Source of the DNA: Parahalioglobus pacificus
GTDB taxonomy: Bacteria; Pseudomonadota; Gammaproteobacteria; Pseudomonadales; Halieaceae
Direction of reading: 5' to 3'
Length of the DNA stretch: 64,000 nucleotides
NCBI RefSeq assembly: GCF_014652275.1
Contig: NZ_BMYM01000002.1
Span: 310,001-374,000, forward strand
Shown: positions 27,685-44,837 of the stretch, piece by piece
How positions within the stretch are numbered: the first letter of the stretch is position 1
Layout: every line of letters starts with the position of its first letter
Program-made: the position numbers and the translations under genes
Notes under the pieces: model-generated
What the model was told of the DNA's origin: nothing
What the model saw: only the letters and a program-made list of their open reading frames with translations
The model's database searches: none

Positions 27685-27704
27685 CGGTGTCAGCGCACCG
27701 TTTT
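27685..27704 (+). terminator. short hairpin between convergent genes
   Basis: CGGTG-TCAGCG-CACCG followed by TTTT. A 5-bp stem that could end the TonB-domain operon. It touches the stop codon of the convergent gene. Confidence 0.4.
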
Positions 27705-28047
27705 AGATGCGCTGAATCTCATCTTCCAGCGGCGCACGTGTGCTGTTACGAGCCACGACGCGGACAGTGCGCTGACAGGTATCCAGCCAGGGTACTGAAG
27801 TCTCAGTCTTCAAAGCACGCACGTACCCACCATCGGTGAAGCAGGAGATGCTGGTCTTGTTGGGCGTCCAATCGCCTTCGCTGGTGCGCGGCTTGCGCTT
27901 GCAATAGAACCAGATACCGCGACGGTCCTGCATCACATACTTGGCGTCTGCCGGAAGAAATACTTTACGGCCGTTAATAACGGCATAAACCTCTAGGTCC
28001 TGACCGGCATCCTGTTCCAGTGTTGCCGTGGGGGTAATTGTCAGCAT
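27703..28047 (-). CDS. hypothetical protein
   Basis: A 114-residue protein I do not recognise. It looks soluble and beta-rich (DLEVYAVINGRKVFLP, YVMQDRRGIWFYCKRKPR), with three Cys and no signal peptide. The start at 28047 has AGGAG at a good distance. It stands alone on the minus strand, between a convergent operon and the terminator of the chemosensory cluster, with a 190-bp AT-rich region upstream that probably holds its promoter. No function can be inferred. Confidence 0.7.
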   Translation of the reverse strand: MLTITPTATLEQDAGQDLEVYAVINGRKVFLPADAKYVMQDRRGIWFYCKRKPRTSEGDWTPNKTSISCFTDGGYVRALKTETSVPWLDTCQRTVRVVARNSTRAPLEDEIQRI

Positions 28048-28279: not shown

Positions 28280-28699
28280 TCAGCGCTGAGGAATGAGTTC
28301 CAACTGGGGAGGGGATCCGGGCACGGGCCTAAGCACTTGTAGGCTGCCCTCACCGCATTCCTGGGCCAGATTCCAGGCCTCTTCAACCGAGCGCATAATC
28401 ATATGCAGGGCCAGTACGGCGCGACCCTCAAACGAGGCCGCTCGATGCAGAATTTCCTCTAGCTGATCTTTATCGATAAAACCCAATATGCGGGCATTCA
28501 GCAGATAATCCCTGATGACCTGTCGGTTGATCTGGTCCTGCAGATAGTCCTGATACCCGTCATCACCAAAGACCTTCGCCAGAACCTGCTTCTCGGGTTC
28601 AGACACCGGCTCGGCAGTAAACGCACTCTCGGGACCAAACGCCTGCTCTATACCGGCAAGCACATCGTTCATTTGCAGTGTGTCGTTGGCGTCTGACAT
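28280..28699 (-). CDS. hypothetical protein, last gene of the chemosensory operon
   Basis: A 139-residue acidic, mostly helical soluble protein. I do not recognise it. The middle (DYLQDQINRQVIRDYLLNARILGFIDKDQLEEILHR, seen as two helical blocks) looks like a helical interaction domain, and the tail after residue 118 is Pro-rich. It follows chpC by 9 bp and ends just before a strong terminator, so it is certainly transcribed with the chemosensory genes. A role as an adaptor or partner in that pathway is inference from position only. Confidence 0.75.
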   Translation of the reverse strand: MSDANDTLQMNDVLAGIEQAFGPESAFTAEPVSEPEKQVLAKVFGDDGYQDYLQDQINRQVIRDYLLNARILGFIDKDQLEEILHRAASFEGRAVLALHMIMRSVEEAWNLAQECGEGSLQVLRPVPGSPPQLELIPQR

Positions 28700-28708
28700 A
28701 GACCCACC

Positions 28709-29134
28709 TTAGCCGTTGAGGCGGCTCTCCAGGGCCTGGAGATCCGGCACCTGATACAGTTCTTCGCCCTGGCGGAAGGCGCCCACGGCGTACTCAGCCG
28801 CATTCGCACTGGCGTCTTCGGCCTCCTCGGTTAGGACTTCGATACGCAGACCCAGCTCACGCAGACAAACCCCCCAGAATTCGGGGCCCGAGCTGCTGAG
28901 CCCGCGCAATACCGCAATAAGGCCGGTGCCCCCGTGACGCTTACCCCAGTGGTCGGCATCACTGCCCAGATCGAGCACGGGGATCTCCCTGCCACGCCAC
29001 TCCACTGTCGCCGGTGGATGCTGGCCTTCGGCAGGAAGCGTGAGAATTTCAGCCAGTGCATTTTCCGGCACCGCCCAAAAATCGTCGGCAGTGCAGGGCA
29101 AGATAATGCATTGTTGTGGCGCTGCGTTTTCCAT
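28709..29134 (-). CDS. chpC: CheW-domain protein, ChpC-like
   Basis: A 141-residue single CheW-like domain: QQCIILPCTADDFWAVPENALAEIL at the start (shown as QQCIILPC ... ALAEIL), VEWRGREIPVLDLG in the middle and a C-terminal FWGVCLRELGLRIEVL. CheW proteins couple receptors to the CheA-type kinase. Pseudomonas twitching clusters also have a second CheW, ChpC, downstream of chpA, and the position here (13 bp after chpA-C) fits that name. Sequence similarity to CheW is modest, so the identification relies partly on context. Confidence 0.75.
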   Translation of the reverse strand: MENAAPQQCIILPCTADDFWAVPENALAEILTLPAEGQHPPATVEWRGREIPVLDLGSDADHWGKRHGGTGLIAVLRGLSSSGPEFWGVCLRELGLRIEVLTEEAEDASANAAEYAVGAFRQGEELYQVPDLQALESRLNG

Positions 29135-29147
29135 GATCAGTCCTGTA

Positions 29148-32100
29148 TCAAGCCACGCTCAGCTGACGGCCAGTGAGTTTGTTAATGTCCTGCACCAACA
29201 GGGGGAAGTTAAACGGCTTACCCATGTAGCCATTACAGCCGGCTTCTGCAGCGAGCTTGCGGTGCTTGGCGCCGGTACGTGATGTCACCATGATCACTGG
29301 AATATCCATGTATCGGGGCGACTTACGCAAATCCTTGAGCGTCTGAATACCGTCTTTCACCGGCATTTCCACATCCAGCAGGATGATATCCGGCAGGCGA
29401 TGCGAGGCATTCAAAAGGTCGATTGCAGCCAGACCATTCTCTGCGGTGATGGTTTCCACACCCAGAGAGTCAAACTTGCTGGTCGCCACCAATCGCTGGG
29501 TTCGGGAATCATCCACCACCATGACCAGGAGCTCATCCTGCTGTCCTTCAGACATGGCAACACGATCAGCACCGTGCTTGGCCAGGCTGGACACCAGCAA
29601 GTTAAGGTCAAGTGCCACGATAGCGCGGCCGTCGGCAGTGGTTGCACCGCCAGCCAGACCGGGCACCTGAGCGAACTGGCTACCCAGAGTTCGAATAACA
29701 AGTTCCAGTGCCTGCTCAACATCATCGATGGCAATCGCCATCACGTTTTCGTCGCGCCCTGCCACAATCACCGGAATGGTGCTCGTCCAGGCCTTGCGCT
29801 CAGGCATGGTTTCGCCATGACACAGTGTCGCCAGATAAGCGGGCTCACAGTCAAAGCCGAACAATGCCAGAGTGCCATCGTTTTCAATGGCGTCGAAGAA
29901 TTCATCAACGGGTACGTACTCAACCGCGATCAATCCATCCAGGGGAATTGCGTAGCTGTGATCACCCGCTGACACTAACAGTGCACCGTTAGCCGTTACA
30001 TTCGATGGAATCCGAATCATAAAGGTCGTACCGACGCCCACCGAAGACTCAATATCGATATCACCGCCGATGGCCTGCAACTCGCTGAGCACGATGTCCA
30101 TACCGACACCTCGACCAGAGATTTCACTCACCGTGGAGCTGGTAGAGAAGCCCTTGTGGAAAATCAGGCGCATAACGTCGGATTCACTCATCCGCGATAC
30201 GTCCACATCCAGACCCTTGCGATACACCGTTTCGCGGATCACGCTGGGATCGATGCCGCGACCATCATCATTGAGCTTGATCAGGTAATCCGAGCCATCC
30301 TTACCGATGTCGATACTGATACGGCCAGCTGCGGGCTTGCCCGCCTCCAGTCGTGTCTGGGCGTCTTCAATGCCGTGATCCAGGGCGTTACGCACCATGT
30401 GCTCAAGAACAACCTGACAGCGGCTGTAGTTGTCGCGATCCAGCTTGCCAGTTTCGTTGAGAACGCGGAATGACACATCCTTGCCCAGATCAGCACCAAC
30501 CGTGCGCACTATACGACGCAATCCCGGCATGAGTCGGGACACGGGAATCACTCGCGCTGACTGGATCGAGGAACGCAGTGAAGACACAATGCTGTTCTGC
30601 TGCTTCAGCAGGCCTTCAACCAGCGCGTTCTGGCGACTGGAGAGCTGGATCAGCTCACTCAAATCCTCCACACCTTCGCGCAGGATGTTTGCCGCTTCCT
30701 GCAGCTCCGAGTACTGGTCCATTTCCAGTGCATCGAGCTCGGCGCTACTTTGCTCACCGCCGCGTGCCGTCACGTTCATCAGTGCGCGGTCTGCAATACG
30801 GGAAATATGCGACCGCACCGATGACAGACGACCCTGCAGTTCCGCCAGCGCCATCTTGCCGCGCACAGTACCCTGCGAAGAACGCACACCCAGCTGCTGT
30901 GCCTGATTGGTCAGGTTCATCAGGTGGTCTACCGCTTCAGCGGTAAGGCGAATAGTCTGCTGGGCAGCCAGAGCCTTGGCCCCTTCATCAGCCAACTGCT
31001 TGTCATTGTCTTTGTCTGTGATCGCCTGCCGCTGCGCTGCGGGCTTAGCGGTCACAACCGCAGCTGGCAGCTCATCGCCCTCTGCAGTGGGCAGCTCTGA
31101 ATCGATGTCTGTGCGCTGATCCTGAATTTTCTCGAACCCGCGTACAGCAGCATCCAGCCATGTGTTCACGATACGGAAGTAGGGGCCGCTGGCTGACGCC
31201 TCAGGTTTGTCGACACCTTCGAGCAGCGTTTCAAAATTATGGATCAGCGTGCCGTAGCGCTGCAATCCAACGCCCTTGGCAATGCCCTTAAGCGTATGCA
31301 GGATGCGGGGTACGGGCGCGAACGCGTCCTCGGATTCAACATCCTGCTCCCACTCACTGATGGCATCTTCGAGCTTTTCGATCTCTAGGGCACCCTCTTC
31401 GATAAAAGCATCCAGGAAGTCATCAAATAGCTCGGCACTGCTGGAGGAGGTGTAGCTGAACTCGATGTTTTCGGGCAAATACCATTTGCCCGAATGGTCC
31501 AGACTGGCGGCCACTGCGGCCGGAGCAGCTGGCTCTGCGGCCACGATCGGCGCTGTATAATCAGCCTCACTCTCTGCATCCACCGAAGGCAGCGCAGCGT
31601 CCAGTTCCTTGTCGCTGTCAGCGCCCAGCGCGCCCAAGCTCTCAAACAGCGCCTCAACATCGGACTCAGAGTCGGCGGCGACAGTAAAGTCATCACTGTC
31701 GAGATCATCACCAAAGATGTCTTCAAGCGATTCGCCCGAGGCCACAAGCTCATCAGCATCTTCATCTGCGGCAGCATCGAAGGCCTCATCCAAGGCATCC
31801 AGCTCCGCGTCGACAAGGAGAGGCTCATCGACAGCTTCGGCTTCCAGATCTTCTTCAACCGCGGCCAACAACACTTCATCGCTGGCATCTACCGCAGTTG
31901 CATCGTCCTCGTCCGCTTCTACAAGCGCACCGATGTCCACGTCATTCAGTGCGGAGATAGACTCCAGGGCATTTGATTCGTTACCGGAGGTCTCCCCGGC
32001 CTGATCGAGAAACTCGTCAAAGTCCAGATCAGTGTCACCCGATGCAGTGGTCAGCTCAGCCGCAGCGGCATCGCTCAAAGACCAGTCATCATCTTCATCC

Positions 32101-35100
32101 AGGCTGCCAAAGGGATCTTCGCTATCCGTGGTTTGATCGCTATCCAGACCGGCTTCAGCCGCGGCCATATCGGCCTGGCTTTCATCCTCAAATACCTCGA
32201 TTTCATTGTCTTCTACTTCAAGGCCAGTCAGCGAAGTCTCTGGCTGTTCAAGCTCCGTGTTGCCCAGGGCTGCGATAGCATCATCCGTGCTCACAGTGTC
32301 TGAGGTGTTCTCGTCGGAGTCAGCTTCAGTGTCAGCGTTTTCAAAAGACACTGCCTCGCCAATCGCTACAACACTGAGCGATTCATCTCCCAGCGCCTGC
32401 TCGTCTGCGCCAAAGTCAGAGACATCGAAGTCATCGTCCATCAGCGCATCTACTGCAGAAGTATCTGCAGAGAGCTCATCGGTTTCTATGCCGAAATCAA
32501 TGTCATCAGCGTCAAAACTAATGGTCTCATCCGTCAGTGCGTCATCGAGACCCGCGTCTGTGTTCTGCACCTCAGCGTCCTCACCTGACTCAACTGCCAG
32601 TCCCAACGCGGACGGGTCGATATCGGGCACTGCGGCCAGACTTGTTTCGGTCGTTTCTGAGTCGGTCTGCTCAGGCGCAAAATCATCCTGCAACAAACGG
32701 TTCCAGTGACGAGACCCCTCACTGTCCTGCAGACGCACACGAATAGCCGTCAAGGATTCCTCGCTGAGGTGCTCCACTGCAGAGGGCAAAGGTTCTGCAA
32801 ACTCTGTGAGCGACACATAGCCTTTTGCAAGGCTGTCATTCAGTGTGACAGTGTCAGGGGCCAGCGTGCAGTCGACTTCCAGTGGTTCGCCAATCAACTC
32901 CAGGTCGAGCAAACGGTCGTCCACGCGATTCTGTAGCTCGTTGACCATAGCTGCCAGCAAAGGCGTCACAGTGACGACCACCGCTGACGCTTGCTCGCGG
33001 GGTGTAATAAAGTCCTCGTGGTAGTCGCTGTTAGAGGCTTCAACTTCATCGAACTCGGTGTCAAAAACGCCGTCGTTCAATGACGCCTCAAGTGCTTCCG
33101 CAGAATTCATGGATGCGGCAAGGGCGTCTTCTTCAGGCTGCAGATCTTCATCCAGCACACCCAAAGGTTCATCCGAGCCAGGCTCTTCCGAGCCGGACTC
33201 ATCTACGTCGTCCGCCAAGCTGGCATCTTCATCTGACAAACCGCCAACAATCACAGCGACGCTTTCGTCTGCGCCACAAGACACTTCGGCTTCTTGCCCG
33301 GCCTCAGTATCCATGTCGACGCTATCTGCTGAAACTACCGCCAGCGCCGAATCATCGCTGTCTTCAACTGTGATGCTATCCGCATCATCAGTGAGGTCTG
33401 AATCAGTGGTGTCACCGAGAAAAGTGACTTCCTCATCAAAGGCGGCAACATTACCGTCAGGGCTGTCTTCGCCCTCGAGATCCTCACCAGCAACAGTGGT
33501 GAAATCTACTTCCAGCGCCGAGGCAAGACCGCCTTGAGTAGCGCCTTCATCCGAGTCATCAGACTGTGATTCGCCGGCGACGTCGCCGAGAAACACCGCA
33601 TCATCCTCTGCGTTAGCACCCTCCGTATCGAGAGTCTCGTGCAGCTCGATATCATCTGCGCTGTCTTCTATGTCTCTTATGTCTTCGCGGTCAGCAACTG
33701 TCGCAGCCTCTACGAGCAGCTCGTCTTCAACACTGAAAGCCGTATCGTTTTCGATACTGTCCTGCGTCGCGCGGCCCAGCTCCACCTCTGGAGCGGGTTC
33801 TGTTATCGATTGAGCAGCGTCACTGAGGAATCCTGTGGACTCAGAGGAGAGCTCACCAGATTCGGCGTCCCCGGCACTGAGTGACAGCTCACTGGCTTCC
33901 TGGGCAAACGAGCCCGAAGTACCCAAATCATCGCCATCAAAGTCTGTGAGCTCAGGCCCATCGAGCGCTCCAAGGAAATTCGATTCTTCAGTTGTCGCAC
34001 TGACGGTGCTGTCGGCTGTGTCATCCAGCGTCAGCGCATCATTCTCGGCGGCGAGGTCGGATAGGAAGCCATCATCAGCACCCTCGGACTCATCATCTGA
34101 AAGCGACAGGGAGCCTGCCAGATCAGACAGTGTCTCTTCGGCGCCAGCAACTTCATCATCGGCTTGGCCGCCCAAGTCCAGTTCGTCCGCAAGATCGCCC
34201 AGAAATTCTGATGATGACTCCGAATCGTCGTCTGCCAGAGACTCCAGAGACAGTTCGCCTTCGAACTTGAGGTCGTCAGCCAACCCTAGTTCATCGTTGT
34301 CAGCACTGTCTTCCGTGTCCAGGGCTTGCTCCAAAGACGCGCCCAGGGACTCAGGCTCTTCAACGTTAAAGCTGGAGAGATCGAGATCCAGCGACTCATC
34401 GGCGCTGTCATCATCGAGCGGCGCCAGTGACAAGCCACCGAGATCCTCATCGTCAGCATCGATCGCAAGAGGATCGCTCGCACTGTCCGTGGATTCAGGA
34501 ACATTAAGGTCGGCTATAACTTCTTCGCTAGAAGTCACATCGGGGGCAGCATCTGCCTCAGACGGAACTCGGGTTTCTACCTGCACCAAGGGCTCGGCGC
34601 TGCCCAGCAACCCGCTTTTAACAGGTTCGGATGTTTTCGGGGCCGAAGACTCTGCAACAGGAGCCTGCACATCGTTCGTCTCAGGCGGCTGTTTTACATC
34701 CGCTGGCTGCGTCTGCACAGAGGCTTGAGCTGACTTGGCACGGCGCTTGATGACAAGGAACCGCTCGCCAATATCATCTTCATCGCTCAAGCCGAGAATA
34801 TCGCCAGAGACAGCGTCACTGTCTGCACTATTACCGCCGTCTACTCGGCCACGAGCAACAATCATTGTGTCCTGGGCCGCTGCTTCTGCCTCGGCAGCAG
34901 CTTTCTCTGCAGCCCTGTCAGCGTAGATATCGCTGCTCTCGCCCACGGAAGAAACAACAATCTCTTCTTCTACGAAGGCACTAAGCACATCAGTATCGTT
35001 GCTGCCGCGAACCAGAGGCCTCGCGGCCATCTGCGCTTCAGCCTGGGTCAGGCCCTGATCTTCAGACTCGTCGTGTGTGACCGAAAACAGGCTATCAGAG

Positions 35101-35213
35101 CTTTCACTCAAGTCCTGGTCGAGTAACCAGCTCAGGTTTTCGTCCTGAGACTCGTCGCTACCCATCACTTCATCATCCGGGTTCACGGATTCTGGCCTTT
35201 CATCACTTTGCAT
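29148..35213 (-). CDS. chpA: ChpA-like hybrid histidine kinase, catalytic half (HPt-kinase-CheW-REC)
   Basis: A 2021-residue CheA-type kinase of the twitching pathway. Residues about 20-1240 are a very acidic, Asp/Glu/Ser/Ala-rich low-complexity stretch, broken by a more ordered segment near 740-840. Then come an HPt domain with phospho-acceptor His1306 (ILHTLKGIAKG), a dimerisation region (about 1390-1560), the ATPase domain (N box EHMVRNALDHGIED near 1605, DDGRGID, GRGVGMDIV near 1700), a CheW-like domain (about 1760-1890) and a receiver domain with Asp1947 (ILLDVEMP). The start at ATG 35213 follows GGGAGAG. Pseudomonas ChpA is one protein; here the N-terminal HPt part is a separate gene 41 bp upstream. 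Confidence 0.93.
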   Translation of the reverse strand: MQSDERPESVNPDDEVMGSDESQDENLSWLLDQDLSESSDSLFSVTHDESEDQGLTQAEAQMAARPLVRGSNDTDVLSAFVEEEIVVSSVGESSDIYADRAAEKAAAEAEAAAQDTMIVARGRVDGGNSADSDAVSGDILGLSDEDDIGERFLVIKRRAKSAQASVQTQPADVKQPPETNDVQAPVAESSAPKTSEPVKSGLLGSAEPLVQVETRVPSEADAAPDVTSSEEVIADLNVPESTDSASDPLAIDADDEDLGGLSLAPLDDDSADESLDLDLSSFNVEEPESLGASLEQALDTEDSADNDELGLADDLKFEGELSLESLADDDSESSSEFLGDLADELDLGGQADDEVAGAEETLSDLAGSLSLSDDESEGADDGFLSDLAAENDALTLDDTADSTVSATTEESNFLGALDGPELTDFDGDDLGTSGSFAQEASELSLSAGDAESGELSSESTGFLSDAAQSITEPAPEVELGRATQDSIENDTAFSVEDELLVEAATVADREDIRDIEDSADDIELHETLDTEGANAEDDAVFLGDVAGESQSDDSDEGATQGGLASALEVDFTTVAGEDLEGEDSPDGNVAAFDEEVTFLGDTTDSDLTDDADSITVEDSDDSALAVVSADSVDMDTEAGQEAEVSCGADESVAVIVGGLSDEDASLADDVDESGSEEPGSDEPLGVLDEDLQPEEDALAASMNSAEALEASLNDGVFDTEFDEVEASNSDYHEDFITPREQASAVVVTVTPLLAAMVNELQNRVDDRLLDLELIGEPLEVDCTLAPDTVTLNDSLAKGYVSLTEFAEPLPSAVEHLSEESLTAIRVRLQDSEGSRHWNRLLQDDFAPEQTDSETTETSLAAVPDIDPSALGLAVESGEDAEVQNTDAGLDDALTDETISFDADDIDFGIETDELSADTSAVDALMDDDFDVSDFGADEQALGDESLSVVAIGEAVSFENADTEADSDENTSDTVSTDDAIAALGNTELEQPETSLTGLEVEDNEIEVFEDESQADMAAAEAGLDSDQTTDSEDPFGSLDEDDDWSLSDAAAAELTTASGDTDLDFDEFLDQAGETSGNESNALESISALNDVDIGALVEADEDDATAVDASDEVLLAAVEEDLEAEAVDEPLLVDAELDALDEAFDAAADEDADELVASGESLEDIFGDDLDSDDFTVAADSESDVEALFESLGALGADSDKELDAALPSVDAESEADYTAPIVAAEPAAPAAVAASLDHSGKWYLPENIEFSYTSSSSAELFDDFLDAFIEEGALEIEKLEDAISEWEQDVESEDAFAPVPRILHTLKGIAKGVGLQRYGTLIHNFETLLEGVDKPEASASGPYFRIVNTWLDAAVRGFEKIQDQRTDIDSELPTAEGDELPAAVVTAKPAAQRQAITDKDNDKQLADEGAKALAAQQTIRLTAEAVDHLMNLTNQAQQLGVRSSQGTVRGKMALAELQGRLSSVRSHISRIADRALMNVTARGGEQSSAELDALEMDQYSELQEAANILREGVEDLSELIQLSSRQNALVEGLLKQQNSIVSSLRSSIQSARVIPVSRLMPGLRRIVRTVGADLGKDVSFRVLNETGKLDRDNYSRCQVVLEHMVRNALDHGIEDAQTRLEAGKPAAGRISIDIGKDGSDYLIKLNDDGRGIDPSVIRETVYRKGLDVDVSRMSESDVMRLIFHKGFSTSSTVSEISGRGVGMDIVLSELQAIGGDIDIESSVGVGTTFMIRIPSNVTANGALLVSAGDHSYAIPLDGLIAVEYVPVDEFFDAIENDGTLALFGFDCEPAYLATLCHGETMPERKAWTSTIPVIVAGRDENVMAIAIDDVEQALELVIRTLGSQFAQVPGLAGGATTADGRAIVALDLNLLVSSLAKHGADRVAMSEGQQDELLVMVVDDSRTQRLVATSKFDSLGVETITAENGLAAIDLLNASHRLPDIILLDVEMPVKDGIQTLKDLRKSPRYMDIPVIMVTSRTGAKHRKLAAEAGCNGYMGKPFNFPLLVQDINKLTGRQLSVA

Positions 35214-35254
35214 TCTGGCTCTCCCTGATCAACTACCGCCGTTCCCTGGCGCTA

Positions 35255-37681
35255 TCAGTGGTGACCGAAAGGCTGCGATGCAGCACTTCCAGAAGCAGTT
35301 GTTGAACCGGCTTCACTGTCCATGTCCTCGTCGCTGTCGGGCAAATCCTCCGCCAGACCTTCGATGGACTCTGCTGCGCGGAAGCAACGATTAGTCAGTT
35401 CGCGGGTCAGGCTGTCATCAAACTCGCCGGGGTCCTTATACGACTGGACCAAATCGGGCAAAGCGGCGATCACATCAGACAGCAGCGATTCCAAACGTGC
35501 ATCAGGCTCTAACTCACCTTCGAGTACACGGTCCAGCAAGTCCTGCGCCGACCAACCCAGCTCGCCCAGAACGTTCGCTCCCACTGCTCGGCCATTACCC
35601 TTAAAGGTATGGAAGTGCCGGCGCATTTCCCGGAGGTTGTCGTTAACCGCGGGCTCTTCTCTCCAAACCGAAATCAGGCGCTGCAGTTCTGTGACAATCT
35701 CTTCAGATTCTTCAATAAACACCTCGCGGAACTCTGCTGGGATGTCCGTATCCTGCACATAGCTGGGTGCAGCCGTCGCTGCGACCGGCGAAGCGGCGGC
35801 AGATCCGGGAGACAAGGTGCTTGTCCACTGGTCCAGTTCAGCCACGCGCTGCTCAGCAAGTGTTACCAGGTGAGAGGTGTCATCCAGCGGATCGATGATT
35901 GAGCGCTGCAGGTGCAATTCGATCTGCGCGAACGCATCAGCAAAACAGCGGAAGGCGTCGTCTTCACGCACGCTGCCGGCTTTGCTGGCAGCTTCCAGCC
36001 AGCTGGAGCAACGCTCAATGATGTTGCCCTCACGCTCCATGCCCGCGAAGGACAGAGCACCCGCGATTTCAGACAGAAGCTGCAGTGAGAGGCGAATGCC
36101 CTTGCGCTCGGGCGTATCGTCGAGTTCATCGAGGAATGATTGCGCCAGTTCCAGCAGTTCGTCGGTATTTTCACTGCCGCGATCAGCCGCAGCAACGGCT
36201 TCACGCAGCGCCTCATTACCGCGGTCGCTTTTGTTCAGGTAACGGTGCAGCGCCATGGTCAACTGCAATACGCCTTCCTGATCTGTAGGACGGTTTGTCA
36301 GTGCCTTGGTCAGCGCCTTGCGACGAAGAATCGCGTGCAGATAACTCTCCACCAGCGACATCTGTGCAAAGGTCGCGTTAACAACACTCTCGCGCAGCTC
36401 GAAATCGCGGCTGGAGAAAGAGCTTGTCACGCCGTGCTCCAGCTTGTATTCCACATCCAGTTTTACATCGACAATGCTACGAACAATCGCAGTCACAGCT
36501 GTTTCCAGGCGATCAGGCTCGTCACGGTATTCACCTTCAAACAGGCGCTGGAGCTGGCCGGACACCTCAACCAGCGAGTCTGCGTGAGCATCCTGACCCG
36601 CGGCGTACAACCGGTGCTGCGCACGCTCAATGCCATCCAGCGCGACGTTGGAATCAGAGTCATCCTGACCCGCGGCAATAGCGAGGTCGTTCGAGGTGAT
36701 GTAGTCCACCACCTGGTTAAGATTATCGAGAGCACCGGACAGCGCCGTGATCAGCGCATCCATGTGCACCAGACCGCTTTGGGCTTCTTCCAGAGTGCTG
36801 GCGTCGATTTCAAAAACCTTGCGGATATTCGCGATGTGGACGGGCTGAGACTTCACTGCTGCCATGTAATAAAGCATTTGCAGCTGGCAGTCTTCATAGT
36901 CCACGGCATCATCAAGCTCGGCCCCGTGTTCACGGGCAAACTTGATCTGGAAGGCGCCAGACTTGAACAGCTGGGCAATGCACTCGTCAGGCGCGATCAA
37001 GCCACCAGCCATGCCTTCGCAGACACCAATCATGGTGAACCAGAAACGCTCGGCGACGGTGCCAGCAAACAGCGTCTGCATTTTGCGGGCAATGCGGGCG
37101 ACGGTTTTCATGCTTTCGCGTGTGTTCTGCTTGCGCAACGCGCTCTTGGCCATCTCCAGGTACAGCGCCAGCATGACATTGGCACGGCTCTTGATCTCCT
37201 CATCGGGAGCGGTGGTTCCACCCTCCGTGATGCCGGCTCCCTCAGGGATGTCCATGTGGAAGAACAGGGCCTGGGGCTTGGGTCGCTCACCCAACCAGCG
37301 GCGCAGGTCGTTCACATACTGCTCAAGGCCACGGCCAGTATCACGACGCGCACTCTGAACATGCGCCAGATAAGCGGGCAAAACCTTCAGCGCCTGCATC
37401 AGTCCGCCCATAGTGAGCTTGCTCCGCTCACCCTGAACCTTGTCTTTGTACAGGTAGTTGAGGCTGCGCTCCATTTCGATCGTGAGCATTTCCGCCTTGC
37501 GGATGCCCAGCGCGCGCAGGGTAGAGGTGATCTGATGGATCGCCCACATGCACTGCAACAACGGCTGCTTTTGGCTGGTATCCCGGCTGTACTCGACCAG
37601 GGCTTGCTCAGCGTTTTCAGCCTGCTTGTTCATCAGGCCGACCACCCACTTGAGCGATACGATGTCCGTCTTTTTAGCCAT
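35255..37681 (-). CDS. ChpA-like protein, N-terminal HPt half
   Basis: An 808-residue protein that matches the N-terminal part of ChpA, without kinase or receiver domains. The first domain (about 1-140) resembles the first ChpA HPt module, with His49 in WAIHQITSTLRALG. The middle is a long helical array. A second HPt at about 650-740 carries a canonical site, His691 in HTFKGNGRAVGA. The C-terminus is disordered and acidic, ending in FGHH. I use ATG 37681 because GGGAGG lies 8 bases upstream; TTG 37687 is unlikely. It overlaps pilK by 8 bp. It probably exchanges phosphate with the downstream kinase. Confidence 0.88.
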   Translation of the reverse strand: MAKKTDIVSLKWVVGLMNKQAENAEQALVEYSRDTSQKQPLLQCMWAIHQITSTLRALGIRKAEMLTIEMERSLNYLYKDKVQGERSKLTMGGLMQALKVLPAYLAHVQSARRDTGRGLEQYVNDLRRWLGERPKPQALFFHMDIPEGAGITEGGTTAPDEEIKSRANVMLALYLEMAKSALRKQNTRESMKTVARIARKMQTLFAGTVAERFWFTMIGVCEGMAGGLIAPDECIAQLFKSGAFQIKFAREHGAELDDAVDYEDCQLQMLYYMAAVKSQPVHIANIRKVFEIDASTLEEAQSGLVHMDALITALSGALDNLNQVVDYITSNDLAIAAGQDDSDSNVALDGIERAQHRLYAAGQDAHADSLVEVSGQLQRLFEGEYRDEPDRLETAVTAIVRSIVDVKLDVEYKLEHGVTSSFSSRDFELRESVVNATFAQMSLVESYLHAILRRKALTKALTNRPTDQEGVLQLTMALHRYLNKSDRGNEALREAVAAADRGSENTDELLELAQSFLDELDDTPERKGIRLSLQLLSEIAGALSFAGMEREGNIIERCSSWLEAASKAGSVREDDAFRCFADAFAQIELHLQRSIIDPLDDTSHLVTLAEQRVAELDQWTSTLSPGSAAASPVAATAAPSYVQDTDIPAEFREVFIEESEEIVTELQRLISVWREEPAVNDNLREMRRHFHTFKGNGRAVGANVLGELGWSAQDLLDRVLEGELEPDARLESLLSDVIAALPDLVQSYKDPGEFDDSLTRELTNRCFRAAESIEGLAEDLPDSDEDMDSEAGSTTASGSAASQPFGHH

Positions 37682-38540
37682 TTTCAAAGCCTCCCAATTT
37701 CCTGTAAGTCGTCACGCCGTCCTGCGAAATTCTTTCCGCCTGATCGGTGTGCCAACCAATGTCTTCACCTGCACCCAAAACCAGCAAACCACCTGCCCGG
37801 GTACGGGTCAGCAACTGATCGATAACGTGTAAGCGCGTTATGCGGTCGAAGTAAATCAATACGTTCTGGCAAAACACGATGTCAAACTTTGCAAAAGGTG
37901 CGTTCTCTACATGCATCAGGTTGCTGTGAAAGAAGCTGATGCGATTGAAGATGCGATCACAAACCCAGTACTGGTCCTTGTCCTCGCACCGTATGTATCG
38001 GCTGCGATAAGCCAGCGGGATATCGTTGATTGAGCGCTCCGGGTAACGGCCAATTTTGGCTCTGGCGACGGCGCCGAAACTGACGTCTGTACCAATGCCA
38101 TGCCAGTTGGTCGCGCATCCACTGTCGCGCAGGGCATGCTCTACCACCATCCCCAGGGAATACAGCTCTTCACCGGTGGAGCAACCCACACTCCATACCG
38201 AAAACTCAGGGCCAATAGTGTCGGCCTGTGCGCGCGTGCACACTTCCTGCCTAACCTGCTGAAACGCGGCGGGCTGGCGAAAGAAACGCGTTTCCTTCAC
38301 CGTCAACAAATCCACCAGGGCCAGCCATTCGGCACGAGAGCCCAGGTCGTCCTTCAGACTATCCAGATAGCCCTGGACGCTGGACATGCCCAACTCCGCA
38401 CTGCGCTCGCCCAGGTATTCCTCGAGTAGCCAGCGCGGCGTCTCGACGGTGATACCTGTGCGCTGCTGCAGCTCGTGGAGCAGCTGCTGGAGCTGCTCGT
38501 CACTGAGCTTAAACATAGCTTGTGCGGATCGCTGGATCAT
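37674..38540 (-). CDS. pilK: CheR-type chemoreceptor methyltransferase PilK
   Basis: Methylates glutamates on the receptor PilJ using S-adenosylmethionine. The 288-residue protein has an N-terminal helical CheR_N domain and a Rossmann domain with the SAM loop VWSVGCSTGEELYSLG, TVKETRFFRQP (substrate side), DVSFGAVARAKIGRYPER and FCQNVLIYFD. Its start overlaps the pilJ stop by 4 bp (ATGA), and its end overlaps chpA-N. PilK is named from the operon position. Confidence 0.92.
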   Translation of the reverse strand: MIQRSAQAMFKLSDEQLQQLLHELQQRTGITVETPRWLLEEYLGERSAELGMSSVQGYLDSLKDDLGSRAEWLALVDLLTVKETRFFRQPAAFQQVRQEVCTRAQADTIGPEFSVWSVGCSTGEELYSLGMVVEHALRDSGCATNWHGIGTDVSFGAVARAKIGRYPERSINDIPLAYRSRYIRCEDKDQYWVCDRIFNRISFFHSNLMHVENAPFAKFDIVFCQNVLIYFDRITRLHVIDQLLTRTRAGGLLVLGAGEDIGWHTDQAERISQDGVTTYRKLGGFENG

Positions 38541-40630
38541 ACGGAGGCCCGGTTGTCCTCAGCGTCTTCCAGTGCCGTCATTTCCGCCTCATCGAACTGG
38601 CTGGGTGAGCCATTCACATGCTCTACTTCACCGCTTGTCTTGAGATCGAAGGCAGCATTGGCAACACCCTCTTCAATACGGAACTGGCTGAGGTTGTCCG
38701 CCACGTCGCGCATTGACGACTGCAGCTGCGATACACCCAACTGCGTGAACTCACTGTACTCGGCAATATCCACGTTACGCTCGCGAATCTCCGCCATGGA
38801 GTTATTCATGTGCTGCGCGCTGACAGCAGACTGTCCCGCAGCATCATCCACCGAGCGAATGATGGAGGAAATCGAGCTTGAGCCGTCGTTGATTTCCTCA
38901 AGTGCCGCATCCAGGCGCTCGATATATTCCAGAATGGTTACAACCGTTCCTACGGTGTTTTCCATACTTTCCATGTTCTCGGCGGACATGTTCTGCAGCA
39001 TGCGTACTTCAGAAATAATCTTACGACCCTCTTCCTCCGCTTCACGCAGCAAGTCACCAATCGCTTCCGCAATCCCGAGGAAGGGTCGGCCGTATTCACC
39101 GGCTTTCTCCGCCTCAATACGGGTGTTAATCGCAACAACCGAAATCTTGGTGTTCAGCGCCTGAATATATTCCGCGGCGTTGGTTACCGACTGGATCAAT
39201 TCACCCTGTCGCTTTGCAGATTTCGACGTTTCCTGTACTGACTCACGCACGTCAGCTGAGGCCGATGACATGTCCTTGGTCAGTTCATAACCGCGCTCAA
39301 CTCGAGAACGGTTTTGCTCGGACGACTTGGCCGCCTCTGCTGTGGAGTGCTTGATCTCCTCACTGGTACGTACCATTTCGGTAGCAGCGGTGGTGGAATC
39401 AACAACCGAGCGAGTCAGCTGCTTACCCTTATCTACCTGGCCACGTGCGGTCTTACCAATCTTGTTAATCTCGTCGACCGAGACTTCAAACGGCGTGCGA
39501 ATGTTCTGAATCAGTTCGCGCTGGCGACGAGTAGAAGCGTTAATTTCCCGCGCAATGTCTGCGGTCACTTCGTTGTCTTCAGGTACCTTCACGGTCAGGT
39601 CACCTTCCGCGATTTTCACCAGAGCACCGTTAATGTCTTCTACACCGGCCTCGGTGTATTCAACCCGGCGACGCTGGCCACGGAACATGACGATCAATAG
39701 GCCAACCGCCAGCAGCGCTGGCGCACCGAACAACACCAGCAACGTGGTGCGATCGAAGAACCGCGCATTGTTCAGGCGGTCAAGCGCCGGAACAATGTTG
39801 GAGATCGCTGCCGTCAGCTCGGGGCTGGACTCAATGATGGCTTCTCGCGCACCCGCCACTTCACGCATCTGCTCAGAGGAGCTCGCGATCTGGTCAATCG
39901 ACGCTGAAATCACCGAGAACAGTGCAGACGCTGTGTTGATAGAGTCCAGCGCGTCTGGGTCAGTCAACTGCTGAACACCCATCACGCGATCGCCGTTTTT
40001 CAAAGAGTCAACCGTGCGGTTAAAGTTTGCAGCATCCTGGCGGAACTCATCCGCGGCAGCCTGGCTCTCTTCACCGCCGGCCAGGATCTTGTCGATGTTC
40101 CTGGCGATACGCTCAGTCAACCATAAGGTCTTCTGCGCGGCCGCAATAGTATCTACCGATACATTTTCATCCCGCAGAATGTCGACAACGGCAGCAAACT
40201 CGCTCTGGATTGGGCGAATGTTGCTTTCCAGATCCACCGACACACCACGAATGAAGGTAATGTCATCACCGGCGGCGACCAGAAGCTGCGCGCTGTCTTT
40301 GATCGGTTGCCAGTTACCCTGAATGCGAGATACCTCGCCATCAATGCCTGCGCCATCGAGATCACCCAGCATGGCGTCGAAGTTCGATACATCCTGAGCC
40401 AACTGCGCAAAAGTCGCTGCATCACCACGCGTTGTTGCGCGCGCACGCGCCACCACGTCGTTCTGCGCAACGCGCATATCATTAGCCAGTACGCGGAATT
40501 GACTCTCTGTACCAGCCTCCTGCTGTGCCACGTAGAAGGTGTAAACCACCCCCGCCAGACACGCCAGCATGCCGACAATAATCACTGTCACCCATACTGA
40601 AGAAGTTCCTGCCGTTTTAGGTTTAGACAT
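38537..40630 (-). CDS. pilJ: methyl-accepting chemotaxis protein PilJ
   Basis: The membrane receptor of the twitching chemosensory system. With the start at ATG 40630 (GAGG upstream) it has 697 residues: a first membrane helix (about 12-35), a periplasmic region of about 270 residues with PilJ-type helical repeats (FRVLANDMRVAQNDVVARA), a second helix (TTLLVLFGAPALLAVGLLIV), a HAMP region (about 320-390) and the signalling domain, whose tip is QALNTKISVVAINTRIEAEKA (two parts: QALNTKISVVA, INTRIEAEKAG). The tip is PilJ-like and differs from flagellar receptors. It overlaps pilI by 8 bp. Confidence 0.94.
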   Translation of the reverse strand: MSKPKTAGTSSVWVTVIIVGMLACLAGVVYTFYVAQQEAGTESQFRVLANDMRVAQNDVVARARATTRGDAATFAQLAQDVSNFDAMLGDLDGAGIDGEVSRIQGNWQPIKDSAQLLVAAGDDITFIRGVSVDLESNIRPIQSEFAAVVDILRDENVSVDTIAAAQKTLWLTERIARNIDKILAGGEESQAAADEFRQDAANFNRTVDSLKNGDRVMGVQQLTDPDALDSINTASALFSVISASIDQIASSSEQMREVAGAREAIIESSPELTAAISNIVPALDRLNNARFFDRTTLLVLFGAPALLAVGLLIVMFRGQRRRVEYTEAGVEDINGALVKIAEGDLTVKVPEDNEVTADIAREINASTRRQRELIQNIRTPFEVSVDEINKIGKTARGQVDKGKQLTRSVVDSTTAATEMVRTSEEIKHSTAEAAKSSEQNRSRVERGYELTKDMSSASADVRESVQETSKSAKRQGELIQSVTNAAEYIQALNTKISVVAINTRIEAEKAGEYGRPFLGIAEAIGDLLREAEEEGRKIISEVRMLQNMSAENMESMENTVGTVVTILEYIERLDAALEEINDGSSSISSIIRSVDDAAGQSAVSAQHMNNSMAEIRERNVDIAEYSEFTQLGVSQLQSSMRDVADNLSQFRIEEGVANAAFDLKTSGEVEHVNGSPSQFDEAEMTALEDAEDNRASV

Positions 40631-41186
40631 CGCCCGTTTCCTCACTGTGTTGCTCTGAGGCGACTGCGGCATTTGCCAGCTCGCCTTCGTTTATTAATTT
40701 GTCGAGATCGAGAACTGCGCAAAAGTCGTCATCGAGGACGAATCCACCCAGGGTGTAGCCGTGAACGGCCGGATCAACGTCGCGCTCCATGTCGCGTTCG
40801 TCGATTGGGAATTTAGTGCTGCGGCGCACATCGCTAAGCGTAATCGCGAAATGCATCCCGGGGCGACGGATTACCATGCAGTAGTCCCGCACTCGTCCGG
40901 AATAGGGTTCGCGACGCAGTAAGACATCGCCACTGATCACAGGAATCAAACCACCGCGATGGGTTGCAAGACCCATCACCCACTGACGGGTACTGGGAAT
41001 TGGCGTCACCTCAGGCATCTCGATGATCTCATCGAGTTCGCCTTCACCCACCAGCAGGGGAATGCCAGCCACGCCAAGCGCTGTCCCCGCCCAGTAGATG
41101 CAGTGATCCACCGGCGTCGGCGGGGCCTCAACGGCCTGGCCGAAACGCTGTTGCAGATCCTGCAGTGCCTGAATCGCAGAGGTCAT
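40623..41186 (-). CDS. pilI: CheW-like adaptor PilI
   Basis: The 187-residue adaptor links PilJ to the ChpA kinase. The CheW fold is seen in YWAGTALGVAGIPLLVGEGE, GLATHRGGLIPVISGDVLL and VHGYTLGGFVLDDDFCAVLDL. It follows pilG by 3 bp and overlaps pilJ by 8 bp. The acidic tail after residue 165 (EGELANAAVASEQHSEETGDV in part) is probably disordered. Confidence 0.92.
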   Translation of the reverse strand: MTSAIQALQDLQQRFGQAVEAPPTPVDHCIYWAGTALGVAGIPLLVGEGELDEIIEMPEVTPIPSTRQWVMGLATHRGGLIPVISGDVLLRREPYSGRVRDYCMVIRRPGMHFAITLSDVRRSTKFPIDERDMERDVDPAVHGYTLGGFVLDDDFCAVLDLDKLINEGELANAAVASEQHSEETGDV

Positions 41187-41189
41187 CGT

Positions 41190-41600
41190 TTACGCCGCCT
41201 TGTGTGCGCCGGTGTAATCGAAGATAAGCTTGCGCAACACACTCTCGGGCGGAATCTTGGTCACATGAGCGGTCGCGCCCCGTGCCTGGCCCTTGGCAAT
41301 GTCAAAGATGCCGTCGGACGACGACAGCATGATCACCGGTGTGTTCTTGGTATCTTCGGCATTCCGTATCAGTGTGCAGGTCTGGTATCCGTCCAGTTCC
41401 GGCATCGTGATGTCGAGAAATATGATGTCCGGCTTGAAGCGGCGCAGCATGCTCAACGCCTTGTAGCCGTCTTCGGCCATCTCAACCTCGCAGCCCATAC
41501 CCTTGAGTGTATGAGACATCATCATGCGAATCGTCTTGGCATCATCAATGATGGCTACCTTGACGCCGCTTACGTCCATTTCCTCGGTCTGTTCTGTCAT
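41190..41600 (-). CDS. pilG: CheY-like response regulator PilG
   Basis: A 136-residue single receiver domain. Acidic residues are in VAIIDDAKTI, the phospho-acceptor Asp in IIFLDITMPELDGYQTC, the conserved Ser/Thr in VIMLSSSDG and the Lys in HVTKIPPES. The LDGYQTC-LIRN segment is typical of PilG. The usual Lys-Pro pair is replaced by Lys-Ile. The start ATG 41600 has GAGGG upstream; the frame is open to 41684 but that part holds the promoter region. First gene of the main operon. No second regulator (PilH) follows it. Confidence 0.92.
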   Translation of the reverse strand: MTEQTEEMDVSGVKVAIIDDAKTIRMMMSHTLKGMGCEVEMAEDGYKALSMLRRFKPDIIFLDITMPELDGYQTCTLIRNAEDTKNTPVIMLSSSDGIFDIAKGQARGATAHVTKIPPESVLRKLIFDYTGAHKAA

Positions 41601-41655
41601 GTTCACCCTCTTAAAACGTACGCTACGCCAACGCGCAGCCGTGAAAGACGGGTTC

Positions 41656-41684
41656 AGTATTTGAATTGGCAAGCCCCGCATCAA
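41656..41684 (-). promoter_or_regulatory. possible promoter of the pilG operon
   Basis: Read on the minus strand, TTGATG and AATACT are separated by 17 bases, 56 bp before the pilG start and just after the terminator of the upstream unit. Each box has 4 of 6 consensus bases. Confidence 0.45.
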
Positions 41685-41815: not shown

Positions 41816-42718
41816 TCAACTCACATATCGATGACTGAGAGCCTCGGCGAGGCCCTCCGGGGTGCTGGTGAGGGAAACAAGGCCAGTATCGATCGCCGCC
41901 TGGGGCATGGCGGCACATACGGCGCTTTCTGGCGACTGCGCCCAAACCACACCCCCGTGTGAGGTGTATGCAGGCAGCGCTTCGGCGCCATCTTCACCCA
42001 TACCGCTGAACACAATGACCCCGGTATGTGCCACATTTGCGCCACCGAGAATGGCAATAGCCTCAGAAAGGGATGGGGTGTAGCGACTCTTCCAGGGCTG
42101 CTCGGGCAGGGAAATGATGATCGGCGATGACAGCGCAAACCGGCAGGACGGTGACAGGATCACAACGGAGCCTCCGGCGAGGCGTGCGTGGGTGTCCAAT
42201 AGCGTCATATCAATCGAGGGGTTGTCGGAGACCATCTCCGCAAGCTGGGCTCGTTTGGCCACGTCATAGTGCTGCGCGTAGACGAACGCCACGGGCACAT
42301 CATCATCGAGGGCATTGAGGAATGACTGTATAGCAGGTGTAGCCCCTGCCGACCCGGCTAGCAGCCAGACCGCGGGGTCTTGCACCGTAGGTCGAGTGAG
42401 TACTTTTCTGCCTTTGCCCACCTGGCGGATGCGTTGAATCTGCGCGCGGCACCAGCTTTCCAACGCCTCGGGATTACGATGATCGGGCAAGCTTTCCACC
42501 GGCAACAAGGCTGTGCCCCCCTTGGCCAATGCTTCAAAGGCTGTGCCGGGGGTGTCATCAAATACCCAGAGGCGGCAGTGCCCCTCGCGCACCAGCGCCT
42601 TAACCAGCGCCGGCGTGGTTGCAACTTCCGCTCTGAGACCCGCCGCCGCCAGCGCCCTTGAAAGGGGCAGGGCGTGAGCGGGTGGCAGGGCTACTCCGAT
42701 GGTGTCGTCGTCAGTCAC
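41816..42718 (-). CDS. chpB: CheB-type protein-glutamate methylesterase, ChpB-like
   Basis: Removes methyl groups from the receptor, opposing PilK. The 300-residue protein has a C-terminal methylesterase domain with the catalytic triad seen as Ser in LLAGSAGATPA, His in YAQHYD and Asp in GMGEDGAEAL. The first 110 residues look like a decayed receiver: the fold pattern remains (VALPPAHALPLSRALAAAG) but the acidic pocket is not complete, so regulation by phosphorylation is doubtful. Its start overlaps the upstream unknown gene by 8 bp. In Pseudomonas chpB lies after chpA; here it is in a separate upstream unit. Confidence 0.87.
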   Translation of the reverse strand: MTDDDTIGVALPPAHALPLSRALAAAGLRAEVATTPALVKALVREGHCRLWVFDDTPGTAFEALAKGGTALLPVESLPDHRNPEALESWCRAQIQRIRQVGKGRKVLTRPTVQDPAVWLLAGSAGATPAIQSFLNALDDDVPVAFVYAQHYDVAKRAQLAEMVSDNPSIDMTLLDTHARLAGGSVVILSPSCRFALSSPIIISLPEQPWKSRYTPSLSEAIAILGGANVAHTGVIVFSGMGEDGAEALPAYTSHGGVVWAQSPESAVCAAMPQAAIDTGLVSLTSTPEGLAEALSHRYVS

Positions 42719-43307
42719 TCGGGAACAGATAGTTGCGGAAAGGTTCCAAGTGCCCTGGCTGAAAGTCCTTCAGTTCATAAATATTGAACTTGTGCATCAG
42801 TGCCAGGCAGCGCTGGTACACGCGATCCGCATCATAAGCCGAAGGCGGAATCTGATACTTGTCGGTTATCTGGGCGAAAATCATGGTCGCAATGTTACGC
42901 CGCATCTCGTCCTCGCGGTACATCATCTGGTCAACCGGCGATGACACAATCGGTGCACCGTAGATCAGAAACGCCTCCCAGCGCCGAACATCCTGTTGGT
43001 CGGGGAGTTGATGCACCAAAAACCTGACCATATTACGCAGCTCAACCGGTGGCGGCACCACGTCCCGCTGCAGCCAATCACGAACATCGCTTTCTTTCCA
43101 ATCATGGTTGATCGCCAGCAGGCTAAGAACTCGGCCGTCTGTTTGCGGCAAGGCAGCACCCGCCAGGTCCCACAGCAGGTTAAGGCGAGCTGAAAACCCT
43201 AGGCAGGGTTCCAGCTCTTCCAGGTGCAAATCCTGATATTCGACGGCGTAGTCGTGCACCGATTTCTGTGCACGCTCTCTGGCGCTGTTTTGCGATGGAT
43301 CACTCAT
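42711..43307 (-). CDS. hypothetical protein between the AAA+ regulator and chpB
   Basis: A 198-residue soluble protein of no family I recognise. Residues about 35-100 (SARLNLLWDLAG ... WLQRDVVPPPVELRNMV) have the helix spacing and the closing Pro-Pro-x-x-Leu that many phage-repressor-type HTH domains show, so DNA binding is possible but unproven. The C-terminal half is helical with many aromatic residues (YDADRVYQRCLALMHKFNIYEL). It overlaps both neighbours (4 bp and 8 bp), so the three genes are translated together. Confidence 0.75.
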   Translation of the reverse strand: MSDPSQNSARERAQKSVHDYAVEYQDLHLEELEPCLGFSARLNLLWDLAGAALPQTDGRVLSLLAINHDWKESDVRDWLQRDVVPPPVELRNMVRFLVHQLPDQQDVRRWEAFLIYGAPIVSSPVDQMMYREDEMRRNIATMIFAQITDKYQIPPSAYDADRVYQRCLALMHKFNIYELKDFQPGHLEPFRNYLFPSD

Positions 43308-44668
43308 ACTGCGGTTCCTGCTGCATCGTTATCGCCCGAGGAATCGCCAATGTCATAGTGCTTTAGCCTTTTTTGGTAAGTTGGCACTGACACACCTAGA
43401 AGCCGAGATTTTTCCCGGCTAGTTACGTTGTCTCCCGAACGCTCAAGCTGGATGAGCAGCAATTTTTCCAGTGTCGCTGGCGGTGACGGCGGCTCCGCTG
43501 GCAGGGCACGAACCCAGTCCCTGACCAGACGTGCCACCTCACGCCAGTCGCGATAGGCATGTCGAGTAGCCGTGCGCTCTGCGATGCGGGGCGCCCAACG
43601 GCCAAGGTTGCGTGCCTGCGTACACAAAAAGCTGGCCGCCCGGCCCTGCTCTCCGTCATAGCGCTCCAGTGTTGCAGTGACCAGCTCATCCTGCAGCCAG
43701 GTGCCAAGTGGCGCGCCGCTGGGCGATGCCACTTCCCGGGCCACCATGGCGGCCACGAGGGACTCCAACTCTTCCAGTGCCGTGGGTGTATACACCTCCT
43801 GCGTGTCTGCCCCCTCGCTGGCCCAATCCAGAAAGGCTGCGCCGTTGGTTGTGGGCTCAGTAGCAGTGTCCCCTGCATCGTGTAGGCCGATATCTGCCGC
43901 GGTTATCCATTCATGATCGCTGTAGTCCAACGCTTCAATAATGCGCTCACGCACTTCCGTGATATTGCCCGTCCACTTGTGTGCCAGCATGGCGCGCTCA
44001 GCATCCGGGGTTAGACCCTTAATTGACCGATTGCGCCGCGCCGCCTCCTGGCCAAGTATCTTCTCTCCCCAGCGCAACACAGCCTTTCCGCGGTCTTTCA
44101 GGGGAGGGACGACAATGGGGTAACCGGCAAATGCACTGGCGAGCTTGCGTGACAGTCGCTCCTGCGCCACCAGCTTCTCCAGCGTTTCGGGGAATACGGC
44201 CAACAGGCGCACGCGCGGTAAGTAGCGCGGAGGCTTTTCGTTAAAGAAGGTGCGTGTACTCACCATGCGCGCGACCCGGTCCTGCGTATCGGGGTGCATC
44301 AGGTGCGGCGACTTGAACACCAGCGTCTGGTCCTTACAGTGATCGACCAGCGCACAGATTTTTCGGAACGACTGCTCACGGCTGCGCAATTCGTGGCAGT
44401 CCAACACAATCATATCTTCGGGTGAGCCGCCCGCAGCCTCGTGCACAACTTGTGCGATATACATCTTACCTGTGCCTCTTGCACCGATAATGGCAACGGG
44501 CATATCAACTTTGGCGAGGAACACGGCTTGATCAACCGCGCCTTCCATGTTGTCGACAACATAGCCCGGATCACCGTCAAGCGTGAACAGGTCTACCTGG
44601 CTGGACAGAATCGGCTGCTGCTCCGCGTTTTCAGCGGACTCCACTTCCCTAGGCTGTGCCCTGTTCAT
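43304..44668 (-). CDS. AAA+ protein related to sigma-54 activators, with degenerate motifs
   Basis: With the start at ATG 44668 it has 454 residues. The AAA+ domain (about 35-290) has a Walker A GARGTGKM (62-69) and a layout like NtrC-type activators (IVLDCHEL, then KWTGNITEVRERI in place of WPGNVRELRN). It lacks the GAFTGA loop that contacts sigma-54. At the Walker B position it reads LVFKSPHL, without the acidic pair. A Fis-type HTH closes the protein (SREKSRLLGVSVPTYQKRL). There is no receiver or sensor domain. It is thus a DNA-binding member that may not activate sigma-54. ATG 44707 and the frame start 44743 are weaker options. Confidence 0.82.
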   Translation of the reverse strand: MNRAQPREVESAENAEQQPILSSQVDLFTLDGDPGYVVDNMEGAVDQAVFLAKVDMPVAIIGARGTGKMYIAQVVHEAAGGSPEDMIVLDCHELRSREQSFRKICALVDHCKDQTLVFKSPHLMHPDTQDRVARMVSTRTFFNEKPPRYLPRVRLLAVFPETLEKLVAQERLSRKLASAFAGYPIVVPPLKDRGKAVLRWGEKILGQEAARRNRSIKGLTPDAERAMLAHKWTGNITEVRERIIEALDYSDHEWITAADIGLHDAGDTATEPTTNGAAFLDWASEGADTQEVYTPTALEELESLVAAMVAREVASPSGAPLGTWLQDELVTATLERYDGEQGRAASFLCTQARNLGRWAPRIAERTATRHAYRDWREVARLVRDWVRALPAEPPSPPATLEKLLLIQLERSGDNVTSREKSRLLGVSVPTYQKRLKHYDIGDSSGDNDAAGTAV

Positions 44669-44837
44669 CGCTTCCTGAGTCTGGGCTCTCACACAATTTT
44701 TGAGCATAAACGGCCGCGAGAGCTGCCGCAATCGAATCAACAACCTTTCTTTTTTATCGAATTATATTGCCCTTTTATTGCGATTTTTATTCGTCTTTTC
44801 CGGAACTATTCTGAGGCCAGTCACTGAGGAGGCCAAG

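Follow-up and report, generated by a model that had tools for sequence, protein, structure and literature searches.

In the window analysed here (the whole 64,000-nucleotide stretch of Parahalioglobus pacificus DNA), a large chemosensory kinase of the ChpA type, which controls type IV pili, is divided between two adjacent genes, which we term chpA-N and chpA-C. The reading that we favour, with somewhat more confidence than doubt, is that their products are the halves of a Tfp-class ChpA whose gene underwent an ancient fission in the Halieaceae, a family of marine bacteria, and that the detached N-terminal half, ChpA-N, would act in trans as a hub relaying phosphate to the response regulator of the cluster. 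The most informative result, and the part worth following, is that ChpA-N has been kept in genomes whose own kinase core was lost.

Both genes lie on the minus strand, chpA-N at 35255..37681 (808 aa) and chpA-C at 29148..35213 (2021 aa), with a 41-nt intergenic gap (35214..35254, minus) that holds the ChpA-C ribosome binding site, GGGAGA. The ATG of chpA-N is preceded by GGGAGG, and its start overlaps the stop of cheR by 8 nt. The frame of chpA-C is offset by 2 relative to that of chpA-N, and a TGA lying 15 nt before the chpA-C ATG closes it; a single-frame read-through of the pair is therefore impossible. The initial annotation, made from the sequence alone, had described two adjacent, non-overlapping genes, the second with its own start and ribosome site and not the product of a frameshift, and these observations bear it out. 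By Pfam, ChpA-N lacks a kinase domain and has a single HPt (650-741, E 6e-15). ChpA-C consists of a conserved N-terminal segment (1-160), a long acidic linker, one HPt (1266-1344, His1306), a dimerization region, HATPase_c (1602-1737), CheW (1745-1876) and a receiver (PF00072, 1897-2010), and its catalytic kinase motifs are intact, in agreement with the domain content first proposed for this protein. His49 and His691 of ChpA-N and His1306 of ChpA-C each fall within an HPt-like motif.

The acidic low-complexity linker of ChpA-C (residues about 160-1249; 31467..34736, minus) dominates a region, residues 1-1250, with 29% D/E and 2.4% K/R. Over most of these ~1250 residues there is little conservation; the exceptions are a stretch at about 1-160, moderately conserved among homologs, and another at about 721-840. 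Intact homologs range from 1053 to 2021 aa, the present protein being the longest. Six FL[GS][DA] repeats occur at residues 333-607 of the linker (33393-34217, minus); as a motif array these FLGDL/FLSDL repeats were rejected, being almost absent from homologs, and they are probably low-complexity drift.

The two genes sit within a recognizable pil-chp cluster on the same strand. Upstream of chpA-N are genes for a CheR methyltransferase (the PilK counterpart, 37674..38540), a PilJ-like chemoreceptor (38537..40672), a CheW-like adaptor (the PilI counterpart, 40623..41186) and a PilG-like single-domain response regulator (41190..41684), the only one in the cluster; a CheB methylesterase domain protein (the ChpB counterpart, 41816..42718) lies upstream of the cluster, and a second CheW-like protein (the ChpC counterpart, 28709..29134) follows chpA-C. 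The order regulator-PilI-PilJ-(CheR)-ChpA-N-ChpA-C-CheW2 is conserved among split loci and matches the pilG-pilI-pilJ-pilK-chpA-chpC-like order of P. aeruginosa, and genes for PilB/PilT-type ATPases are present in the genome. Unlike the P. aeruginosa Pil-Chp system, the cluster has one regulator gene with no PilH-type second regulator alongside, and the acidic linker of its kinase is very long. Fused clusters often carry two single-domain regulators (PilG and PilH), and a candidate second one is found in the window's genome at G000:C1:461225-461578.

We examined the distribution of this arrangement in 78 Halieaceae genomes, each at least 90% complete. ChpA-N is present in 40 of them and never in the frame of the kinase; 38 of these 40 have a separate kinase-core gene and two a reduced ChpA-C. 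A different, fused ChpA of 1.8-2.1 kaa occurs in 7 of the 78, four of which lack ChpA-N, and 34 have neither. Named matches, where a taxon is given, are Halieaceae (Parahaliea, Pseudohalioglobus, Seongchinamella, Mangrovimicrobium, Halioglobus and MAGs), while elsewhere in the order ChpA kinases occupy long fused frames, save at contig ends and at one run of N. That run of N, in G052, accounts for an apparent second split in the order outside the Halieaceae, which was rejected; where kinase frames are short in further genomes of the order or the class (G048, G056, G208, G256, G266, G330 and G375 among them), they lie at contig ends. We give practically no credence to an assembly or sequencing artefact or a recent frameshift, which the false split in G052 and the broken frames of G032 might bring to mind, given separate frames with their own ATG and ribosome site in place of one continuous frame, the same arrangement in 40 of the 78 family genomes and 25 named loci from many projects, isolates included. 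Nor can the two-gene arrangement and the conservation of both ChpA-N histidines, seen across dozens of genomes, be attributed to chance.

In a tree of the kinase core (dimerization-HATPase-CheW), the split kinases without exception fall into a single clade (100/100) that joins the fused ChpA proteins of type IV pilus systems and stands far from the CheA outgroup, which points to an old gene fission and not to an artefact; that the split is shared by a clade is what the initial annotation would lead one to expect. One fission within the Halieaceae is the simplest reading of these sequences. When the fused Halieaceae clade is included it is sister to the split clade (100/98), both on long branches; when that clade is left out, the split kinases keep a place among the order's fused ChpA proteins, at an unsupported position. 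The exact sister group is insecure because of these long branches.

Alignment places ChpA-N residues 1-749 in colinear register with a 1941-aa fused ChpA of the same order (25% identity, E 8e-43), and identities to fused ChpA proteins range from 25 to 30%, the comparison set being fused ChpA proteins drawn from that GTDB order in place of a named Pseudomonas ChpA. Of 27 ChpA N-termini, fused or partial, 24 have a histidine at the position equivalent to His49. This colinearity, the match at His49 and the kinase-core tree uphold the proposal that the pair is a ChpA-type kinase divided into two genes, and support the assignment of ChpA-N as its detached N-terminal part. The low identity would also suit an unrelated HPt protein recruited beside a kinase, but such an origin is very improbable for a protein that aligns colinearly with ChpA over most of its length, shares the histidine at position 49 and occupies ChpA's place in the pil-chp gene order. 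An identification of ChpA-N as FimL was likewise rejected: the protein has 808 aa and an HPt, and scores 93 bits against the FimL profile versus 800+ for true FimL. Like P. aeruginosa ChpA, the two proteins together comprise N-terminal HPt-like domains, an HPt, dimerization, HATPase, CheW and receiver domains, and the receiver in cis at the ChpA-C C-terminus and a cluster encoding PilJ, PilI and a PilG-type regulator are those of the Tfp class. The N-terminal domains are, however, on ChpA-N, and ChpA-C has one HPt instead of several HPt-type domains preceding the kinase on one polypeptide, so that neither protein alone is a standard ChpA. The two Halieaceae polypeptides have about three detectable HPt domains in total, whereas Pseudomonas ChpA has at least nine Xpt domains (PMC12632253).

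The HPt-like character of ChpA-N was assessed from an AlphaFold2 model built with 26 homologs (mean pLDDT 73.8; whole-chain pTM only 0.39). In this predicted model, residues 648-775 form a CheA-P1-like bundle (Z 19.0 to 1i5n) and residues 6-133 another (Z 17.5 to 3kyj, the CheA3 P1), both Z-scores exceeding what unrelated helical bundles commonly reach; a possible third, weaker bundle lies at about 302-422. The His691 domain matches the Pfam HPt profile and keeps the full HxxKG motif, as an HTFKG that is invariant in the 26 homologs. The His49 domain is under the detection level of Pfam; in the model His49 lies in helix 39-58, in keeping with the HPt pattern of a four-helix bundle with an exposed histidine on helix 2. 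His49 and His691 are themselves invariant in the 26 homologs. The initial annotation had given this 808-residue, kinase-less protein two HPt-like sites, and motifs, Pfam and the predicted folds make both well supported.

Two Pseudohalioglobus-group genomes (G033 and G199), out of eight from one genus, carry a reduced locus (L081 6462-13104 and L160 4030-14130, respectively). PilJ, both CheWs and the ATPase and CheW domains of ChpA-C are gone, while ChpA-N, the regulator, an HPt-receiver remnant of ChpA-C and the flanking genes are kept; the remnant, of 896-920 aa, has an HPt, a vestige of the dimerization region and the receiver. Each of the two genomes also carries a complete fused ChpA cluster, and the six sister genomes lack a fused copy and have the split locus intact. 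When G033 is compared with G199, ChpA-N is 92% identical with a dN/dS of 0.028 and the PilG-like regulator 98.5% identical with a dN/dS of 0.012, these ratios being rough as dS is near or above saturation. The ChpA-C remnant, by contrast, is only 60% identical in its HPt and 54% in its dimerization region, compared with 88-91% and 93-94% in intact pairs whose ChpA-N is 89% identical. The His691 HPt of ChpA-N is 92% identical between the two genomes, against 73-88% in intact pairs. Constraint on ChpA-N and the regulator despite loss of the receptor, the CheWs and the ChpA-C ATPase suggests a function independent of the cognate receptor and ATPase, and ChpA-N thus appears to have a role apart from its own kinase. 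Its retention without a kinase core, as would be expected of a protein acting in trans, is supported by these comparisons.

These patterns bear on how the freed N-terminus might work. In Pseudomonas, ChpA and FimL have homologous N-termini, and each of them brings PilG to the pole (PMC10519157). FimL resembles ChpA-N in being a stand-alone protein homologous to the ChpA N-terminus, and acts as a PilG-recruiting polar hub (PMC10519157), but at 550-605 aa it has no C-terminal HPt, whereas the 808-aa ChpA-N has the extra His691 domain and resembles FimL less closely than it does the N-termini of ChpA. Most of the order's other families yield true FimL to a search with a FimL profile; the same search of 36 Halieaceae (within G000-G036) detected no stand-alone FimL, the matches being only ChpA-N or fused ChpA N-termini. 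Halieaceae with only a fused ChpA also lack FimL, so the loss of FimL is not tied to the split. ChpA-N could be a phosphorylation-independent scaffold, equivalent to FimL, that recruits the PilG-like regulator and leaves its HPt histidines unused. The shared ancestry and polar recruitment of PilG, the undetected FimL and the retention of just ChpA-N and the regulator as a unit in the kinase-less loci all speak for this reading, yet we hold it to be unlikely in view of the invariance of both histidines, the preserved HxxKG motif and the higher conservation of the His691 HPt in the kinase-less pair than in intact pairs.

A stronger competitor, which we nevertheless doubt, is that the two proteins reassemble into a stable complex working like a single-chain ChpA, the split being functionally meaningless. 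Wherever an intact split locus has both genes on one contig, they are neighbours with the same orientation; the moderately conserved first 160 residues of ChpA-C could be a docking segment; and a two-hybrid assay shows an interaction between the halves of the Synechocystis kinase, Hik36 and Hik43 (PMC7656254). Such a complex is hard to reconcile with the strong constraint on ChpA-N in two genomes where the ATPase and CheW domains of ChpA-C are missing and what is left of its HPt and dimerization region is decaying. We accordingly rank the relaying hub first, reassembly second and the pure scaffold third.

In the relaying-hub reading, ChpA-C, held in a PilJ-PilI/CheW array, would autophosphorylate its own HPt at His1306 and pass phosphate to its own receiver and to the PilG-like regulator. 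ChpA-N, outside the array, would serve that regulator in trans as a hub for docking and phosphotransfer, by way of its two conserved HPts (His49 and His691), and would also fill the polar-hub role that FimL has elsewhere. A hub that also relays phosphate is favoured because ChpA and FimL recruit PilG in Pseudomonas and FimL is undetected in the Halieaceae searched; phosphotransfer to ChpA-N, its binding of the regulator and its polar localisation are steps that we infer, and it may possibly cover for FimL. The earlier suggestion that a separate HPt protein could serve as a diffusible relay or sink is a plausible hypothesis, and a scaffold of the FimL kind would suit the observations as well. 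Against the hub, any phosphate reaching ChpA-N in G033 and G199 would need to come from another kinase, for which the fused ChpA is a candidate by putative cross-talk, and many Xpt domains of Pseudomonas ChpA stay unphosphorylated and may do no more than scaffold (PMC12632253), which counts against a relay by ChpA-N. A bolder reading, to which we give less than even odds, is that the freed ChpA N-terminus has become a signalling component in its own right, an HPt hub that acts in trans on the PilG-like regulator and can take its phosphate from a non-cognate kinase. In G033 and G199, where ChpA-N persists without its own receptor array or ATPase domain, that kinase might be the second, fused ChpA, and two chemosensory systems would then be joined. 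A question in Pil-Chp signalling is why ChpA has so many HPt-like domains, and what the unphosphorylated N-terminal ones do (PMC12632253). Since the Halieaceae have cut ChpA in two, and two genomes have dropped the kinase core and kept ChpA-N, this part can be tested as an isolated protein, which could tell whether it works as a relay, as a sink or as a PilG hub.

Fission of a ChpA-type kinase is not itself new, Synechocystis PilL-N (Hik36, slr0073) and PilL-C (Hik43, slr0322) having already been published as the cooperating N-terminal and kinase-receiver parts of a Tfp-class kinase (PMC7656254). These halves are far apart in the genome of a distant phylum; we set them beside the Halieaceae pair by description and assume a separate origin. 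CheA functions are also partitioned over two adjacent genes in Rhodobacter sphaeroides CheA3-CheA4 (PMC10542144), but that pair belongs to the flagellar class and arose by duplication and decay, in contrast to the proposed fission of ChpA. A survey notes separate Hpt genes as neighbours of CheA genes (PMC10542144), and a search of the available literature for chemosensory work in the Halieaceae found no report. Another gammaproteobacterial split, in two genera of family f68 (G232 and G348; L171 1073-6497 and L172 5756-11419), likewise has an N-part gene adjoining the kinase gene in a pil-chp cluster, and G263 is similar. The breakpoint differs from that of the Halieaceae: the f68 N part is just 556-558 aa long and has a single, weak HPt at its N-terminal end, and three HPts remain on the 1210-1229-aa kinase. 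A single origin for all splits was rejected by an AU test (p 0.0025, with groups partly chosen after seeing the data), and the f68 split would thus be independent of that in the Halieaceae.

Several further genes around the locus are conserved. Three small uncharacterised genes (28280-28699, 27703-28047 and 42711-43307, all minus; 139, 114 and 198 aa) accompany the split locus and are also kept in the reduced loci of G033 and G199. A sigma-54 activator-like ATPase gene (43304-44743, minus), in which no receiver domain was found, is conserved upstream of the cluster across the Halieaceae; its annotated product length varies between about 420 and 900 aa. At another site in the window's genome (G000:C3:116699; L158 500-4972) lies a gene for a 1490-aa HPt protein with a region similar to the response regulator of the cluster, which is probably a hybrid sensor kinase.
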